The translations under genes were made by a program, and so were the position numbers. A model generated the notes under the pieces. The model was not told where the DNA came from, did not search any database, and saw only the letters and a program-made list of their open reading frames with translations. 64,000 nt of DNA, taken from positions 62,001-126,000 of the forward strand of contig JALNQF010000073.1 in NCBI GenBank assembly GCA_028456385.1. Reading direction: 5' to 3'. Origin of the DNA: Ophiosphaerella korrae. Taxonomy: Eukaryota; Ascomycota; Dothideomycetes; Pleosporales; Phaeosphaeriaceae. Shown here piece by piece: positions 43,021-50,654 of this stretch; within the stretch, counting starts at the first letter, position 1, and each line of letters opens with the position of its first letter.

Positions 43021-43383
43021 TGACACGTTTTATAAAAACTCGCGTATTAGTTAACTCGTCGTTAACTCACATCAACTCACAGTCAACTGAGGCAGCAGGT
43101 CAACTGACTATGGATTTGCCTCGGTTGAGATGGCGCCAAACTACAACAGGCATATTAACCGCTTTTAGCTGAAAAATAAAATTCTCATCTCAACTGAACG
43201 AAAGTTCATAGTCAGATGAACTTTTCTCCAACAATAGATCAACTCGATAGCTCATTTATGCTATACAACCCATTCAGCATTTAGCAACCAACTTCCACTG
43301 ATATTGACCCAAGTTTCAAAATTAGTAATAAGTTTGCTTCGCCTATATACCTAACTGGCAGCAATAATAGTAGTGGTGACTAG

Positions 43384-43431
43384 GTACAAACGAATGAAAC
43401 GTTATCTAAACGTGATTTTAACATGTTCTAG
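43384..43431 (+). other. Mini-intron 1 of the MULE-like gene (type example)
   Basis: 48 bp, GTACAAACG to TTCTAG. The 3' half (ctaaacgtgattttaacatgttctag) shows the core shared by the other introns: an ACGYG-containing block, a branch-site-like CTAAC or TTAAC, then an acrtgttctag acceptor. Confidence 0.7.
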
Positions 43432-43623
43432 GATGATAAGATACTTTTTACTGCTGGTAGTAGTCAAGGAGGCCTACTAACTACAGTAGACGTCTGATAT
43501 GTCCCTGTAGTTCCTATGTATCCTGAATGCTTAGAGAATGGGCTAGCGTACGTTGTTCCAATAATCAGGAAAAGTGATAGGAGCTTGCTGGACCATAAGA
43601 CAATCCTTAGCCGCGCAATTAAG

Positions 43624-43671
43624 GTACAAAGACATAGATCATGTTTAGAACGCGTACTAAACGTGTTCTAG
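43624..43671 (+). other. Mini-intron 2 of the MULE-like gene
   Basis: 48 bp, GTACAAAG to TTCTAG, ending AACGCGTACTAAACGTGTTC-TAG. It shares its first seven bases and length with intron 1. Splicing is phase 0, joining AIK to a frame reading YAKVSCYKGN. Confidence 0.75.
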
Positions 43672-45817
43672 TTCTAATATGCAAAAGTCTCCTGCTACAA
43701 GGGAAACCAGACGGTCTCTCCGTTCTTTAATAACTAACCTGCAATACAATATAAGTATTGGTGCTCTAGGATTGAGCACTGCAAATATCTTAAGGATAGC
43801 CTTAAAACGTATTCCTATACTACTATTAATGATACATATTAGGATATACTTAAGAGATTACGGCATATCCTAAAGGATTTAGATAGTAAGGCAAAAGCTA
43901 TTAGGTAAGTACAATAACATGTTCTAATCGCGATTCTAATATACTAATGTTAATAATAGTAGTATATATATTAGAATCAATCGACGATTTAAGTTAGGGG
44001 TTTGCCTCTACCGCAAAGAGACCTGTAGCCTAATACTCTACTAGTAGCGCTAAAGAGTAAGAATAGAGGATTACTTAAACGTATTATAAACGCGTTACTA
44101 ACACAATTAGCTACTTATAAAAGAGAGGCTATATTTTATCGCGTGTTAGAGCTAGGATTAGCATGTATTAAATATAGAGAAGTACTTTACTACTCCTATA
44201 AGTAATATAGTTAATATTAGTTACTTAAAATAGTTATTTAAGTTTAGGTTAAGTAGAGAGGATTAACTAGGATAGTTATATGTTATTGTTAAGCCTATAA
44301 CAACAAAGGCTATAAAATGTAGTAGGTAAGAAAAAATACAATACTAATACGTTAATAACGTGTTTTAGATATTAATTACCCTTAAGGTATTAGGACTCTT
44401 ATTAAGAAGTCCTATAAGGTTTATTACTACGTAATAATACCTGTAGACTTTAACAAAGTGCTATACTTTGTACTAATTGCGTTTAGAATATATACACATG
44501 TACCTCTACCTCTAAATATTATTAGGGGAGAGGTAATTATAGAGATTAAGGTAATACTTTAACCTATACTTATACTAAGTTTAACAAGATACAAGTAGGA
44601 AGTAAAACAGGTTTGTAACGCGTTTCTAACATAATATAGTGCAATTTCTTAATTCTATACAATTAAAAGCGTATCTTACTTAGTATAGCCTTTAATCTAT
44701 TAAAGATCTTTATATTACATTTATAAATAAAGATAGTATATTATTAATATTAAAACGAGAAAAGCTACTCTACTTCCTACACTAAAGTAGTATAGAAGGC
44801 GTTGTATTTAAGTAGAGAATAAAGTATTAGATTCTAGAAACTATAAGAATATAATTGTAACACGATCTAAACGCGTTTTAATAACAATACTAGGCATATA
44901 TTTAATAGATTATCTCTAGCGTATCTAGTAATATTGTGCTCTGTTTTTATAATAAGTAGGCATAAGTACTACTAGATTAAAAGATATTTTAGATAGATAT
45001 ATTATATAAGAGATTAAATAGGAAATAGGTAGAGATCTTAATTACAATATTTTACTTAGAGTATAATAAGTATAAGGAGAAAATATAAAATATGTTTTAA
45101 ACGCGATAGTAACTTGTTTTAGTACTTACCCTAGGTAGAATTATTACTAATAATAACTCCCTAGAAATATATTAACTAAGCTTTATTACTTACTTTAAGC
45201 TTATTAGCGAGCATACAAAGAAGCTAGTACAATAGTATTATATCTATTAACGTAGATTTTATAGTACTATACTTAATATATATAGTAAGTAGATACTTAG
45301 TAAAAAGAAAGTATATCGCGTTTAGATCGCGTTTATAACTTATTTAATAGGACTTAGCTAATATCTCTATATAATAGACCTATAATAGAGAGAGTAGAGA
45401 TAGTAACTCTAATCTTATATTTAATTCTACTATATTTACTTCTTAAAGAGTATTAATACTACAATTTAGCGTACTCCTTATTATATAGATTCTACCTAGG
45501 GTCGTATAAAAGCTCTCCTTAACGTTAAATTAAAAGAGGAGTATTTTAATCTTTATAACTTATTAATAAGTAAGTTTAAACAATTAAATACGATTAGAAC
45601 GTATTTTAAACATGTTTTAGTACATAAAAAGACTCCTACAATTTAGAACTAGGCTAAGAACAAGAAGAATAAAGTGTTTGCTACTAGGTTAGTTTAATAT
45701 TGTAGCTAAATAAGTAAAGAAGTCTAAGATATATTAGAATTATATACTAATACTACTAAATAGGCTAGGTAAAAGGGATATTAAATAGGTATCTATATAT
45801 TACTTATTAAAGCTATA

Positions 45818-47679
45818 ACGTACTCTATAGGCGAGTTACTTATATAAGCGAGTTACCTACTTTTACTAAGCCCTTACTAAAACTACTACGTTATAGCGTA
45901 AAATAGCTTACTTTAACCTAGTATACTATAATACAATACAAGATATTATTTAGAGTCTACTTCTACTATATTCTTATACGTTTACGTATTATACTTAGTC
46001 TCTTTATACACTATACACTATTATTAAGATAGTTTACCTACTTTAGCGCGCACCTACTTCTTTAACTTCTTCCTATTACTACGCGCACTAAAGTCCTTAA
46101 AAGTAGCTAAGCGTACTCTATCTTTAACTATTAAGGTCCTCTCTACTTAAACCTACTTTCTTTTATATAATTTTCGTCGCGTTATAACCTTATTTACTAC
46201 TTAAAGCTTAGCGTTTTCTTTTTATACTAATACTAGCTTATATACTATTGCTACTGCGCCTTTAGTAAGGTATTTAAAGTACTTAGCTAGACTTATTAGT
46301 AAGCTATCTATATACCTCTAAATCCTTACCTTTATAAGCGTTGATTGTAACCCTAATTATAGGGTATTGCTTAGTGTTTACGACTACTAGGGCTCGTTAT
46401 TAGGTAAGAGTAGTAAAAGAGTATATAGCTTAATATTAAGAGTTAATATAACCTATTCTAAGTTAAATAGAGCTAATCTAGCGCCTTAAAACCCTCCTTA
46501 GACATTCTTAGAAGTAATTACTATATTATAGGCGCGCTTAAAGTATAGTAAGAACTTTTATTTTATAATATAGCTAATCTAGTAGCGTAAAAGTACTTTA
46601 ACTTAGTACCTATACGCCTTCTTTAAAGGAGTAAAATAGCCTATATTAAGTAGCTATAAGAAGTATAATATATACGTAGGTATATAAAGAGTAACAATCT
46701 TGTTATCTTTATAGTAGTTCTTGAATTTAAGCGAGTTATAGCTCTTATAGCCGTTAATAATAAGTAAACGTACTATCTTAATAGTACGCGTCTTTATATA
46801 CGTATTAAAGTACTTTAACTACGTAAGACTAAGCGTATTAGTTGTCTAGCTATTTTTAGAGACCTTAATAACCTAGTCTTAGAGTATTTTACTATCTTTA
46901 TACTAGTTTAATAGGTAGTAGTGCGCCTTAAAGATAATAAAGGGTAGAATAGCCTACCTAGTTATATTAATACTTGTAATAGCTATTACCTACTTTTTAT
47001 TACCTAGCTAGATTGCTTTTAGCTATAAACGTCTCTCTAAGGCTATAATAACTATATTTACTATAATCTAGCCTATTATAAAGCTTATCTCGTTAAAGTT
47101 ATATAAGTTATTATCTAAGATACTATACTTAGCTTTAGTATTAGCTACTAGCTTAAACTACTCTTATATAAGGTTAGGATCTTTATAGAAAGCTCTCTTA
47201 TAGTTATACTTGTAATTAATCCTTATTTTAAGCTTAGAGTAGCGCTTAACAAACGTACTAGGCTAGTTTATACTAACTTAGGCTAGATTATACTTAGCGC
47301 GTAAGGAATTAGCTATATTAGCTACGTCTACGAGCTAGGAGGGGAATCTACGCTTAATAAAGTTAAGGATATACTTAATAATTATACTTTCTTTAAGCTT
47401 AGTTAGATTACTTAAGTTAGGTATAGTATCTACGCGTAAAGGTCGTCTAGCGCGTTAATTACCTAGCGTCTTACGAGAAATATTATAGATAGATATAGTA
47501 TATTATAGTAAGAGATTTACGTCTTATTTAATAGCTTAAAGGGTAAGCTATACTTAACGTTTATTTAAAGGTTCTATATATTATTATTGTTACGATATTA
47601 GAAGGTAGTAGGTGTTTTAGTAAGGGCTTAGTAAAAGTAGGTAACTTACCTATATAGGTAACTCGCCTATAGAGTACGT
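45818..47679 (-). mobile_element. pogo-3: second copy of the pogo-2 family
   Basis: 1862 bp, TIRs beginning ACGTACTCTATAGGCGAGTT, TA duplication at 45816-45817 and 47680-47681. Transposase is on the minus strand. The C-terminal knuckle that is CIVCKETRHNAQMC in pogo-2 reads VYSVYKETKYNTQTY here (about 45975-46020): every Cys is Tyr and the His is Tyr. It is inserted in the MULE-like gene. Confidence 0.9.
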
Positions 47680-49329
47680 TATAAATATAAGGTAAATTAT
47701 AGAAATAGGTTTATAACGTATTACTAATACGTTTTAGTATAGCTTAAATAGATCTCTAGGATATAAAGGAGTTTAATACCTATAATAAGTATAGTATTCG
47801 CTATACCTATTATACTACTTTAAGTCTAAGCACTTAATACTCTCTTAATAGAGGACGTAAGAGAAGTATAGAATATTATTATTACTAAAGAAATATATAT
47901 ACTAAAATAGCTTTAGAACGTAAATATAATAACTTTAAAGACGCTTATATTATCTTAGATAATAAAGATAATCTTATAAGCTCTATAGAGCTACTATAGC
48001 GTAATAAGTAGATAGCTTTAAAGTTATAAAACGTTTAGTTATAAACTTAACTATAATTATTACTACTAAGCTTACTAGCGTAGTTACTATTAAGAGTAAC
48101 TACTATACTAATATAAGTATTATAATATATTTAAAACGCGTTACTAACGCGTTCTAGCTTAATAAGTGTACAAACTCTTTAAAAATAAGCTATTCTTTTA
48201 AGCTAGTTACTCTTAAGCTAATTACTCTTGTTTAAATAAAAATAGTTAGAGATCTAGAAGTTAAAACTTAAGTTAGAAAGAGAGAAGTTTAACTTAGAAA
48301 AAGAAAAGCTTATATTTAAGTAGGAGAAAATTAGATTACAATATAAAGAGGCTTAGAACGCAACCTAAAGATATTCTAAATATATTCTAGTATAGAAAAA
48401 TTTTCTTTACTTAAAAACTCTATTTACTATAACTTACTTCTCTCTATCTTTTTTTTTAATCTCTACCTATAATATAAAGAATAAGATTTTACTTCTTATA
48501 GTATGTAACTAGATTATATTTTATACGCGTTCTAAACTAGTTTAGCTAGTATATTAGAGATATACTAAATTAGCTTCTCTACTAGTAAGTACACCTAAAT
48601 TTACTAAGAATATTAATAGCTTATATACTATATATCCTAGTAAGTTATTCTATAGAGTAAAGTAGACCCTATATAATAAGTAGCTATATAGAGTACGTAC
48701 TTAAATATAATCTATATATATTTACAATATATTTTAATATTATACTAGAAGAAATTTAGTAATTAAGGTGCTTTAGTTTACTATATCTAGTAAGGCTATC
48801 TATTATACAAGGTTAAGTCTATTAAGACTAGGCAACATTTAATTTCTAATAATACTAATACTCTCTACTTCTACTACGTAGTAGTTATACCTAGAGATCT
48901 ATAGTTAAAAGAGTTCTAGAACTCGTCCTAATTACGTTCCTTATTAATTTATCTTATAGCAACTCCTTAATAAACTATTAAGTACAACTAAATAACTAAA
49001 GAACCTAAAGAAGAACTTAGAAACTAATTAGAAGATATAGAACGCGTTGTAAACGACTCTAAAACACGTTTCTCTACACTAGATCTACTTTCTCCTCTCT
49101 TACCTCCTTTAAAACGATAGAAGTAGTTATATATATAACCTCGTGTAGAAGAGGAGATTACTCTATTACTACTAGATAAGGCTCTTCCTAAGAATCTTAT
49201 TCCTATACTAATATACTAAGCTAATAACTTAAAGCGAGGGCAAGTTAAAAGAGAGGTAAGTATCTATTAAAACGTCTTTATATTACATTTATAACACGTT
49301 TTAGGTTAATATAAATAAATACTACTAAC

Positions 49330-50500
49330 TTCTTACTAAAAAAAATCTCCCTCCTATATATAAAGTTTGTAACAAGAATAATAATATAAAGTGCATTTTT
49401 ATAGAGTCCTATATAAGTAGATAGTACTTTAACTTTATATAGAGTAACTACATAATAATATAGTAGATCTTTTATTAAAGAAAACTACTAAACTAAAACC
49501 TCTTATTATCTATTTACTATAGAACACGTTTTAATCTATATTAAAACTTGTTCTACTAATCTGCTAGAAATTAGCTTGGATTTTCTTTAAGATAGCTAGC
49601 ACAAAGATACCTAAATCTCCTACTAATTAATATTCTTACAATATTAACTACCCTCTACCTTATTACTATGTTTATTAATGTTAAAATCGAATTTGCATCC
49701 TAGAACGTGTTAGAAACGCGCTTTAAGTATATTCTAGTATACTTACTAGTTATGTTATTCCTAAAATTTTCTTTGCACGTATCGCAAGGCACAACCTAGC
49801 CTAAGCGCCTAGAATAGTTACTTATGCGATTAAGATCAAGCTATAGCTATATTAGAACACGTTTGAAACAGCTTCTGAACTTGTTTTACCTTAGTACTAA
49901 TCTTAAATAGGTAGATTTTGGGCAGATCTTCGGAGAGCATCTAATATAGCTAGCGCTGTTGCTCTATCCTAACAACTCGCTTATCTAATACACGATTATA
50001 CTCTTCTATAACCCCCTAGTACTAATCTAGAACGTGATTAGAACGCGTTTCAAACGCGTTCCACACACTTACCTATTAATAGCGCGAGGATGCTGTAGTA
50101 AATCTGCCCCTTAGCATTCTCGCATAGCGCAATGTCGCTATATCCGTGCTAGTTTTTAATGTAAGTTCTTAGGCTACCTCTCGTACCTAATTTTCGCTAT
50201 ATTAATTAGAACATACTTAAAACGTTTTATAAACATATTCTTACTCTATAGATGCTATTGCCTACTAGGGCCCTGCAAAACAACTCTCTGATCTCTACTA
50301 CTAGGTCGCCGCTGTTGTTAAGCTAAAATGGCCCTAAGCCTTAAGGTGCTAATATTAGGTTAATATAACGTCAGTAGTTATACTAGAACGTAATTAGAAC
50401 AACTTTGTAACATATTTCATTAACCTACGTTTTATGCTAGAGTCTTGCAAACTATTTTTTAGTGGTGTTGTATTATGTGCGTAGGAACGTGTTACGAACG
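49330..50500 (-). pseudogene. Convergent multi-intron gene of the MULE-like element (Cys-rich)
   Basis: On the minus strand at least six introns of about 40-48 bp are clear: 50383-50428 (donor uncertain), 50197-50244, 50027-50072, 49847-49889, 49700-49746 and 49517-49556. They carry donors such as GTAAGTGTGTGG and GTAAAACAAG and acceptors CACGTTCTAG or AATATAG. Exons between them encode a Cys-rich protein (VVPCDTCKENFRNNIT, then TDCKFDFNINKHSNK and a further Cys pair), resembling a zinc-binding module with C-x2-C spacing. Start and end are not fixed. It probably encodes an accessory DNA-binding protein; the identity is not established. Confidence 0.5.
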
Positions 50501-50654
50501 TGATGTTAACGTGTTGTAAAAATGTTGTGTTGGGGCTGAGTTGAGTTGAGCTCGCTTAGAGCTGCGCACGCGCCAAACCTAGCTTGGCATTGCCATCTCA
50601 ACCGAGGCAAATCCATAGTCAGTTGACATGCCGACACCTCTGCCGCAGGGGGGG

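Follow-up and report, generated by a model that had tools for sequence, protein, structure and literature searches.

The window, a stretch of 64,000 nucleotides from the fungus Ophiosphaerella korrae, contains a RIP-damaged transposon of what we call family 1 (Table 1). It has terminal inverted repeats and convergent genes, and the repeats and the strands of the genes bear out what an earlier note on this DNA had claimed. No target duplication was found in the flanks of the window copy; its full-length sister copy, L009, is flanked by the 9-bp duplication CGAAAGACA. The nested 1.9-kb insert is missing from all nine fetched copies that span the site.

Table 1. Features of the transposon copy, by position in the window
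Feature	Position	Strand	Remarks
Whole transposon copy, family 1	43089..50637	.	RIP-damaged; terminal sequences GAGGCAGCAGGTCA... / ...TGACATGCCGACAC
Left terminal inverted repeat, perfect part	43099..43134	+	
Gene 1, transposase	43216..48322	+	RIP-decayed, split by nested insert; end approximate
Gene 1, intron 1	43384..43431	+	
Gene 1, intron 2	43624..43671	+	
Gene 1, intron 3	43905..43962	+	end adjusted by 3 bp
Gene 1, intron 4	44057..44110	+	
Gene 1, intron 5	44322..44368	+	
Gene 1, intron 6	44591..44639	+	start adjusted by 4 bp; donor not GT
Gene 1, intron 7	44843..44893	+	donor AT in window copy
Gene 1, intron 8	45070..45122	+	start uncertain by 2 bp
Gene 1, intron 9	45300..45350	+	start adjusted by 11 bp
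Gene 1, intron 10	45570..45620	+	
Nested second transposon	45818..47679	.	inverted repeats spotted by eye
Gene 1, intron 11	47687..47737	+	donor AT in window copy
Gene 1, intron 12	48113..48157	+	donor AT in window copy
Gene 2, C2H2-like zinc-finger protein MGNKTL...	48474..49416	+	ends approximate
Gene 2, intron 1	48501..48545	+	
Gene 2, intron 2	48693..48748	+	
Three 11-bp units, two exact	49041..49073	.	coding exon of gene 2 by un-RIPed relative
Gene 2, intron 3	49256..49304	+	
Gene 3, second C2H2-like protein	49560..50480	-	distant likeness to gene 2; ends approximate
Gene 3, intron 5	49700..49742	-	
Gene 3, intron 4	49841..49889	-	
Gene 3, intron 3	50027..50072	-	
Gene 3, intron 2	50197..50244	-	
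Gene 3, intron 1	50383..50428	-	
Subterminal tandem array, three 11-bp units, two exact	50486..50515	.	
Right terminal inverted repeat, perfect part	50592..50627	-	

The protein of gene 1 shows 42–49% identity to four proteins. Gene 2, whose start codon is decayed in L009, matches PF00096 with E = 3.9e-4, which is below the Pfam cut-off, and a profile of genes 2 and 3 finds three relatives of gene 2 in other fungi. A Pfam scan of the spliced protein of gene 3 (174 aa) gave no zinc-finger match, and a protein search with its RIP-damaged read-through gave no match; the C, C, H, and H residues are common to both genes. There is one finger per protein, which is little for a site of 8 bp and counts against the kind of zinc-finger reader that we propose below.

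About 20 mini-introns of 43–58 bp interrupt the genes, 12 and 3 on the plus strand (genes 1 and 2) and 5 on the minus strand (gene 3), with a mean spacing of 274 bp (range 137–542). The earlier note had at least 14 on the plus strand and 6 on the minus strand, of about 37–55 bp. Two of its examples (43624–43671 and 50027–50072) are exact, but the one that it began at 48117 starts 4 bp earlier, at a donor AT, and the one that it gave as 49700–49746 ends at 49742. Placement of intron ends relied in part on visual judgement with knowledge of the motif, and we adjusted three of them after the first mapping; introns 4 to 11 of gene 1 (8 of its 12) are also fixed by alignment gaps against proteins of other fungi.

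These near-uniform introns share a core, AAC-RY-GTT, far above chance. In the window, 20 of the 22 AACRYGTT sites lie inside the element, and 15 of those 20 are within the mapped introns (970 bp). The clearest view of the pattern comes from L049, a related un-RIPed copy of family 2. Its 20 introns, 1067 bp in all, contain 24 of its 28 sites, and its exons, 3980 bp in all, contain 2 (Fisher p = 1e-14); the remaining 2 lie in non-coding DNA outside introns. Shuffled L049 introns contain a mean of 0.55 sites and at most 4 (2000 shuffles), and with the branch and splice sites held fixed, the mean is 3.67 and the maximum is 9 (also 2000 shuffles). The common intron core that the earlier note described is thus real, and on both strands, but it is better written as an in-register 11-bp unit, AACRYGTTNNN. 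The exact word is present in 17 of 20 introns of family 1 and in 19 of 20 of family 2 (19 of 21 if we include a doubtful intron without the motif, L049 3758–3807, which we left out of the counts of density, similarity, and register).

If the unit is relaxed, the distance in L049 introns is 11 or 22 bp for 13 of 14 close pairs. Spacings are multiples of 11 in 4 of 4 cases in other non-coding DNA of L049, and in 7 of 8 cases in a short relative, L030. Relative to the 3' splice site, every exact site (24 in family 2, 20 in family 1) has a phase of 2–5 (modulo 11), although one family-1 site would move to phase 6 if the end of intron 3 were set 3 bp later, as it is in our comparison of exon plans. 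Information along the introns, counted from the 3' end, has a second peak at a lag of 11 (r = 0.74, versus 0.40 at a lag of 10). The last unit of many introns overlaps the branch point and the 3' splice site (as in CTAACGCGTTCTAG). The centre is RY in 24 of 26 AACNNGTT of introns, and in the 24 intron sites, it is GT (9), AC (6), GC (5), or AT (4). The sense strand carries both orientations (6 AACACGTT and 9 AACGTGTT), as expected of a symmetric DNA site.

Also, the word is not tied to introns. Close to one end of the element are tandem arrays, each with 3 to 6 units, some of them degenerate. By eye, the subterminal array of the window copy resembles those of family 2 (5 units) and of relatives in which no genes are recognisable (3 and 6 units). 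Exact units are few in these arrays: 1 of 5 in L049 and 1 of 6 in L034, whose 6 tandem units are mostly degenerate. L030 and L032 are 680-bp relatives with duplications CGGCGTCTT and GTCAAGCTT; each has 7 exact sites, a longest ATG frame of 29 aa, and no match to the three genes below E = 0.35. Another relative, L036, contains part of gene 3. The same-end arrays of L049, L009, L030, L034, and L036 look homologous, with differing numbers of units, and blastn supports this homology for the end segments. Interior stretches of L030 are 84–85% alike, over 31–33 bp, to intron 2 of both families, so part of the L030 arrays could descend from introns. The array inside the coding exon of gene 2 means that the rule of non-coding placement is not strict. 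Across the genome, there are 62 strand matches to the tandem pattern AACRCGTTNNNAACRCGTT, spread over 44 places, versus 0 for a reversed control, with 18 palindromic matches counted twice and many places being copies of one family. Further arrays occur at two outlying places, L052 and L053, and L053 adjoins stretches that are alike to the element's genes.

The two families are diverged, but their exon-intron plans are similar. RIPed copies are 84% identical across gene 2 and 66–68% in the transposase, and L049 compared to family 1 gives 80% and 65%; the higher likeness across gene 2 means that the families have in common not only the word but also its proposed reader. The lengths of the internal exons of gene 1 are 192/192, 233/239, 94/94, 211/211, 222/222, 203/203, 176/178, 177/177, 219/222, 202/202, and 375/395, a match that is partly circular because three family-1 intron ends were adjusted with family 2 in view. 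Exon lengths are 147/147 and 507/486 in gene 2, and 138/135, 124/118, 137/155, and 98/91 in gene 3. Introns 1–7 of the 12 in gene 1 agree in codon and phase; the other five did not line up in this comparison. Homologous introns have a mean similarity score of 14.9, versus 9.2 (sd 5.6) for others, chiefly owing to gene 2: outside gene 2, same-place introns are little more alike than other introns, and the best match is the homologous partner for just 5 of 20. The word persists in same-place introns, in many cases at another slot, whereas the sequence around it has diverged. Since the families are related, part of this sharing reflects descent.

Could the pattern have arisen at the level of introns? 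The repeated word might be an RNA-level signal that helps a splicing factor to define tiny introns, as its register with the 3' splice site and its overlap with the branch point would suggest. Nevertheless, both orientations are in use, and arrays are also seen close to the element's end and in relatives that have no recognisable genes. (An RNA role is possible for the subterminal array, which could be part of a transcribed leader.) Furthermore, none of 45 control introns from 45 kb of sequence has the word, which has 3 sites elsewhere in that sequence; these controls are regex candidates, not taken from an annotation, and their donor rule is satisfied by only 13 of the element's 20 introns. 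On balance, a splicing signal seems quite unlikely to us. The earlier note also raised introner-like spread, in which one intron type multiplies by insertion into the element's genes, and the uniform sizes, the common core, and the presence on both strands would fit. Introners do form groups of sequence-alike introns, but the published pipeline requires likeness near both intron ends (PMC9860276). In the 20 L049 introns, similarity does not reach near both splice ends: at the 5' end, there is no likeness past GTA-G, and 5' positions 6–30 have 0–0.5 bit each. Also against introner spread, likeness extends from the 3' end only and in an 11-bp unit, exon lengths (and the codon and phase of introns 1–7) are similar in two diverged families, the word also lies outside introns, and the control candidates lack it. 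A strict 14-mer of the core has 24 exact matches in the genome, 21 of them in element copies that we found; another match (C11:27132, outside the fetched set) is 3.1 kb from a family-1 end, and the fetched matches at C24 and C490 have no array. We consider introner-like spread very unlikely.

Other explanations act at the level of DNA. Replication slippage could have expanded an 11-bp unit that then drifted without any function, and the varying number of units among relatives (3 to 6) and the many degenerate subterminal units are what slippage would produce. Because same-place introns of the two families retain the word while the remainder has diverged, and because the AAC/GTT arms and the RY centre are kept in introns, we view slippage as very unlikely, the least probable of all these explanations. 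Alternatively, a host transcription or replication factor, for example of the MBF/MCB type, might read the word. The MBF/MCB type of word is ACGCGT, and AACGCGTT contains it, but the centre is GC in only 5 of the 24 intron sites. We reject the MCB/MBF reading because it fits only these 5, and we think it unlikely that the pattern is due to a host factor of this general kind. If we ask only which protein reads the units, it could equally be a host protein or one encoded by the element.

We think it probable, if far from certain, that the units, in a three-gene, MULE-like transposon, are rows of DNA-binding sites, perhaps read by a C2H2-like protein that the element encodes. Selection on a shared motif, the other alternative in the earlier note, fits better than intron spread, but at the level of DNA, given the arrays near the end and in relatives that lack recognisable genes and the use of both orientations. 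That a protein binds the units, which protein it is, and what its binding does are our inferences. Units of 11 bp, based on the dyad-symmetric AAC-RY-GTT, occupy the non-coding gaps (the roughly 20 mini-introns, the intergenic spaces, and the end next to gene 3), and these units would be binding sites at the DNA level rather than an intron type. The mini-introns would then provide a place to land every 270 bp on average, and in many of them the final unit would double as branch point and 3' splice site. The most likely reader would be the C2H2-like zinc-finger protein of gene 2, gene 3, or both, which might bind the symmetric word as a dimer and meet several units on the same side of the helix. 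It might tag the entire element, either for expression or anti-silencing in the manner of VANC on VANDAL elements or for assembly in transposition. More speculatively, this may be a fungal form of self-recognition, independent of the plant VANDALs, in which a zinc-finger protein of the element reads a dyad word set into almost all mini-introns, in 11-bp register with the splice site, and the introns, as spaced pads for its landing, coat the element and counter silencing; we hold this only tentatively. If our reading is true, then the number and content of introns in selfish genes can have a cause that is unrelated to splicing, and fungi, whose repeats RIP destroys, evolved anew the kind of sequence-specific self-recognition that is known from the VANDALs of Arabidopsis. 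We would also expect the motif and the zinc-finger residues to change together across related fungi.

It is plausible, although not proven, that the element is MULE-like, as the earlier note called it. The Mutator superfamily is described as having target site duplications of 8–11 bp (PMC6446971). Perfect 9-bp duplications flank L009, L025, L030, L032, L048, and L049 (the scan was limited to end pairs with no more than 1 mismatch between flanks), and these fit. Pfam scans of the transposase recognised no transposase family; in particular, PF10551 (MULE transposase) had no match in the read-through, the four relatives, or the spliced 875-aa protein. Profile comparison of the transposase with the genome's one PF10551 copy gave a probability of 0.4%, a weak test with 4 sequences, and that locus (C104, ended by a contig edge) contains no array and a single site in its 3.1 kb. 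The catalytic pattern of MULEs is a D-D-E triad with C-x2-H between the second D and the E. D254, D330, C364-x2-H367, and E455 of the transposase P0002 are invariant in all 4 proteins; its predicted structure (pLDDT 40) is too poor for use.

The closest known system appears to be VANDAL and VANC anti-silencing in Arabidopsis, where a short motif is repeated in introns, intergenic DNA, and terminal non-coding parts (PMC5735166, PMC10398659). Like VANDALs, the fungal element combines a transposase with extra genes and has an element-specific motif in tandem repeats whose number varies between copies; its motif lies in introns and, partly degenerate, in intergenic and terminal DNA. VANC has DUF1985, and VANC21 recognises YAGTATTAY (PMC5735166, PMC10398659), whereas the fungal element has C2H2-like candidate readers and AACRYGTT; DUF1985 had no Pfam match at E up to 1 in any of the three spliced proteins (with 174 aa for gene 3). 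VANDALs are reported to have no terminal inverted repeats or short, degenerate ones (PMC6446971), as opposed to 36 bp of perfect repeat here. Also unlike VANDALs, the fungal element has an 11-bp period in register with the 3' splice site. Mutyl, a MULE of Ascomycota that by description resembles the fungal element, has a C2H2 domain, an antisense second gene, inverted repeats of 22 bp, and duplications of 9–10 bp; the passage describing it is silent on arrays or intron-rich genes (PMC6446971).

In the literature that we searched, whose coverage left out most subscription journals, we found no description of intron-borne arrays in a fungal element. En/Spm elements have subterminal repeats that are bound by the transposase: short sites near the element's end that are kept in non-autonomous copies. 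The fungal element likewise has short repeated sites near its end that are kept in non-autonomous copies, but unlike in En/Spm, its sites are also distributed across the introns of genes 1, 2, and 3.

The mini-introns of this element are alike beyond their splice signals, as the earlier note claimed, and what they share is the word AACRYGTT, the core of an 11-bp unit (AACRYGTTNNN). We accepted 20 introns in L049, an un-RIPed copy from a second family: 12 in gene 1 (the transposase), 3 in gene 2 (a C2H2-like protein), and 5 in gene 3 (another such protein, on the opposite strand). They are 45-63 bp long, with one exception of 117 bp. With intron ends set partly with the motif in view, 24 of the 28 exact sites (full matches to the word) in L049 lie in introns, 2 in exons, and 2 elsewhere, and 19 of the 20 introns contain at least one. 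Dinucleotide-shuffled introns had a mean of 0.55 and a maximum of 4 in 2000 shuffles; if the branch and splice sites were held fixed, the mean was 3.67 and the maximum 9 in 2000, still well short of 24. By a relaxed definition of the unit, 13 of 14 close pairs within introns are spaced 11 or 22 bp. Measured from the 3' splice site, exact sites end at distances of 3-5, 14-16, 24, 26, 35, 38, or 46 bp, and so stand in register with it. Both orientations occur in introns, and 24 of the 26 intronic instances of AACNNGTT have a purine-pyrimidine centre. In the window's copy, 15 of 20 sites are in its 20 introns, 2 in a subterminal array, 2 in an exon array, and 1 (49523) in what L049 indicates is the spacer of genes 2 and 3. 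Our sample is one genome (63 Mb, 974 contigs).

The window's copy has a full-length sister, L009 (5685 bp, with a 9-bp target duplication, CGAAAGACA), in which TpA/ApT is 1.50, a RIP-like value, versus 0.995 in the window's right end. L049 (5824 bp, duplication CGCTGACGA) has terminal repeats unlike those of this first family but shares its plan. Because its GC content is 0.45, versus 0.30 in its RIPed relative L025, its reading frames can be followed. L049 (contig C335) and L027 (contig C66) look recent, as they are 99% alike across 3.6 kb. Contigs C66, C335, and C956 carry second-family copies with several stop-free transposase exon matches, amid many RIP-damaged copies. The insert nested in the window's copy is absent from all nine fetched copies spanning its site.

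Coordinates of features in the window and in L049
Feature	Sequence	Positions	Remarks
Transposon copy	window	43089-50637	
Nested 1.9-kb AT-rich transposon	window	45818-47679	sits in gene 1; inverted repeats (TATAACGTACTCTATAGGCGAGTTAC...)
Long AT-rich stretch	window	2000-42000	left of the element; GC 0.22-0.36
Degenerate 11-bp units	L049	955-985	abut start codon of gene 1 (AACACAATG)
Three 11-bp units	L049	4951-4983	within coding exon of gene 2
Degenerate 11-bp units	L049	6395-6445	abut start codon of gene 3 (AACACGATG)

It had also been suggested that one intron type spread through the element, as introners do, but this is probably not what happened. Between the families, 10 of 11 internal exons of gene 1 are equal in length or at most 6 bp apart, after three family-1 intron ends were adjusted with family 2 in view (the affected exons had been 97, 226, and 188 bp, versus 94, 222, and 177). 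Introns 1-7 of the 12 in gene 1 match in codon and phase; the remaining five do not line up in that alignment, which we attribute to the damaged family-1 frame. In genes 2 and 3, the lengths of corresponding exons differ by 0-21 bp. Given that the families are 41% identical as proteins in the same alignment, the plan looks older than their split. The mean score is 14.9 for introns at corresponding places and 9.2 (sd 5.6) for others; leaving out gene 2 brings the mean of the listed corresponding-place scores to 10.8. For 5 of 20 introns, the best match is the counterpart at the corresponding place. Furthermore, none of 45 control introns (a small set, and candidates rather than annotated introns) from 45 kb of other sequence contains the word, which occurs 3 times in that sequence.

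The repeated word is not tied to introns. Near the gene 3-side end, we counted by eye 5 tandem units in L049, 3 in L009, 3 in L030, 6 in L034, and 3 in L036, of which 1, 2, 1, 1, and 3, respectively, are exact; these arrays look homologous, with varying unit number. L036 retains part of gene 3. The elements L030 and L032, both 680 bp long, have perfect duplications, and their ends (about 140-155 bp each side) are 78-84% alike to those of L009. L034 has similar ends, yet these gave no match in a strict end search. In L030 and L032 the longest ATG frame is 29 aa, no match to the element's genes is better than E = 0.35, and exact sites number 7 apiece. A portion of the interior arrays of these two resembles intron 2 (84-85% over 31-33 bp), so that portion is possibly intron-derived. 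Genome-wide, the tandem pattern gave 62 strand matches at 44 places, versus 0 for the reversed control.

Once spliced, gene 1 encodes 875 aa. It groups with four proteins at 42-49% identity (the query was the L009 read-through), three of which come from the Pleosporales Lindgomyces, Lentithecium, and Melanomma. The residues D, D, C-x2-H, E are invariant and stand in the order of MULE transposases. Gene 1 had no MULE match in Pfam. Neither profiles nor structure placed the element among the MULEs, to which it may nonetheless belong. The sole PF10551 (MULE) match found in the genome (C104:79848-80129) belongs to a different element; in the 3.1 kb of that locus there is 1 site but no array. Gene 2 (MGNKTL...) carries the line LFCRAKW...VCGKKFSDRGALIHHIRRAH and matches PF00096 with E = 3.9e-4 (21.2 bits, below the cut-off of 25.2). 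Its product ends at 231 aa in L049, versus 260, 279, and 157 aa in its relatives P0005, P0006, and P0007; relatives come from Zopfia, Lindgomyces, and Melanomma. For Lindgomyces, the contig given is 807,515 bases long for the transposase as well as for the zinc-finger protein, so the two may belong to one element. The Lindgomyces protein P0006 has a peptide, LERVANT, similar to that of the gene 2 exon units and encodable by the same word. Gene 3 shares C, C, H, H and several neighbouring residues with gene 2 (28-29% identity).

Window positions 48342-49576 (gene 2 and flanks) are 84% alike between RIPed copies of the two families (loci L025, L026, L028, and L021), versus 66-68% for the transposase, and both edges are close to motif arrays. 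The difference suggests that the gene 2 cassette was recently exchanged between families, as if by recombination.

We infer that the words may be binding sites along one face of the DNA, because the word is symmetric, occurs in both orientations and in an 11-bp register, is found in introns, other non-coding gaps, and relatives lacking recognisable genes, and persists while intron sequence turns over. The candidate readers would be the two zinc-finger-like proteins that the element encodes. Both families have the word, and an exchange between them seems to have involved one of these proteins. The reader may also be a host protein. Such a protein might activate the element, protect it, or aid its transposition. 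The target motif of VANC, from Arabidopsis VANDAL elements, forms tandem repeats in introns, intergenic regions, and terminal non-coding regions (PMC5735166, PMC10398659). This is the closest precedent for the fungal element, where the motif likewise lies in introns and other non-coding parts and where, by analogy, it would be bound.
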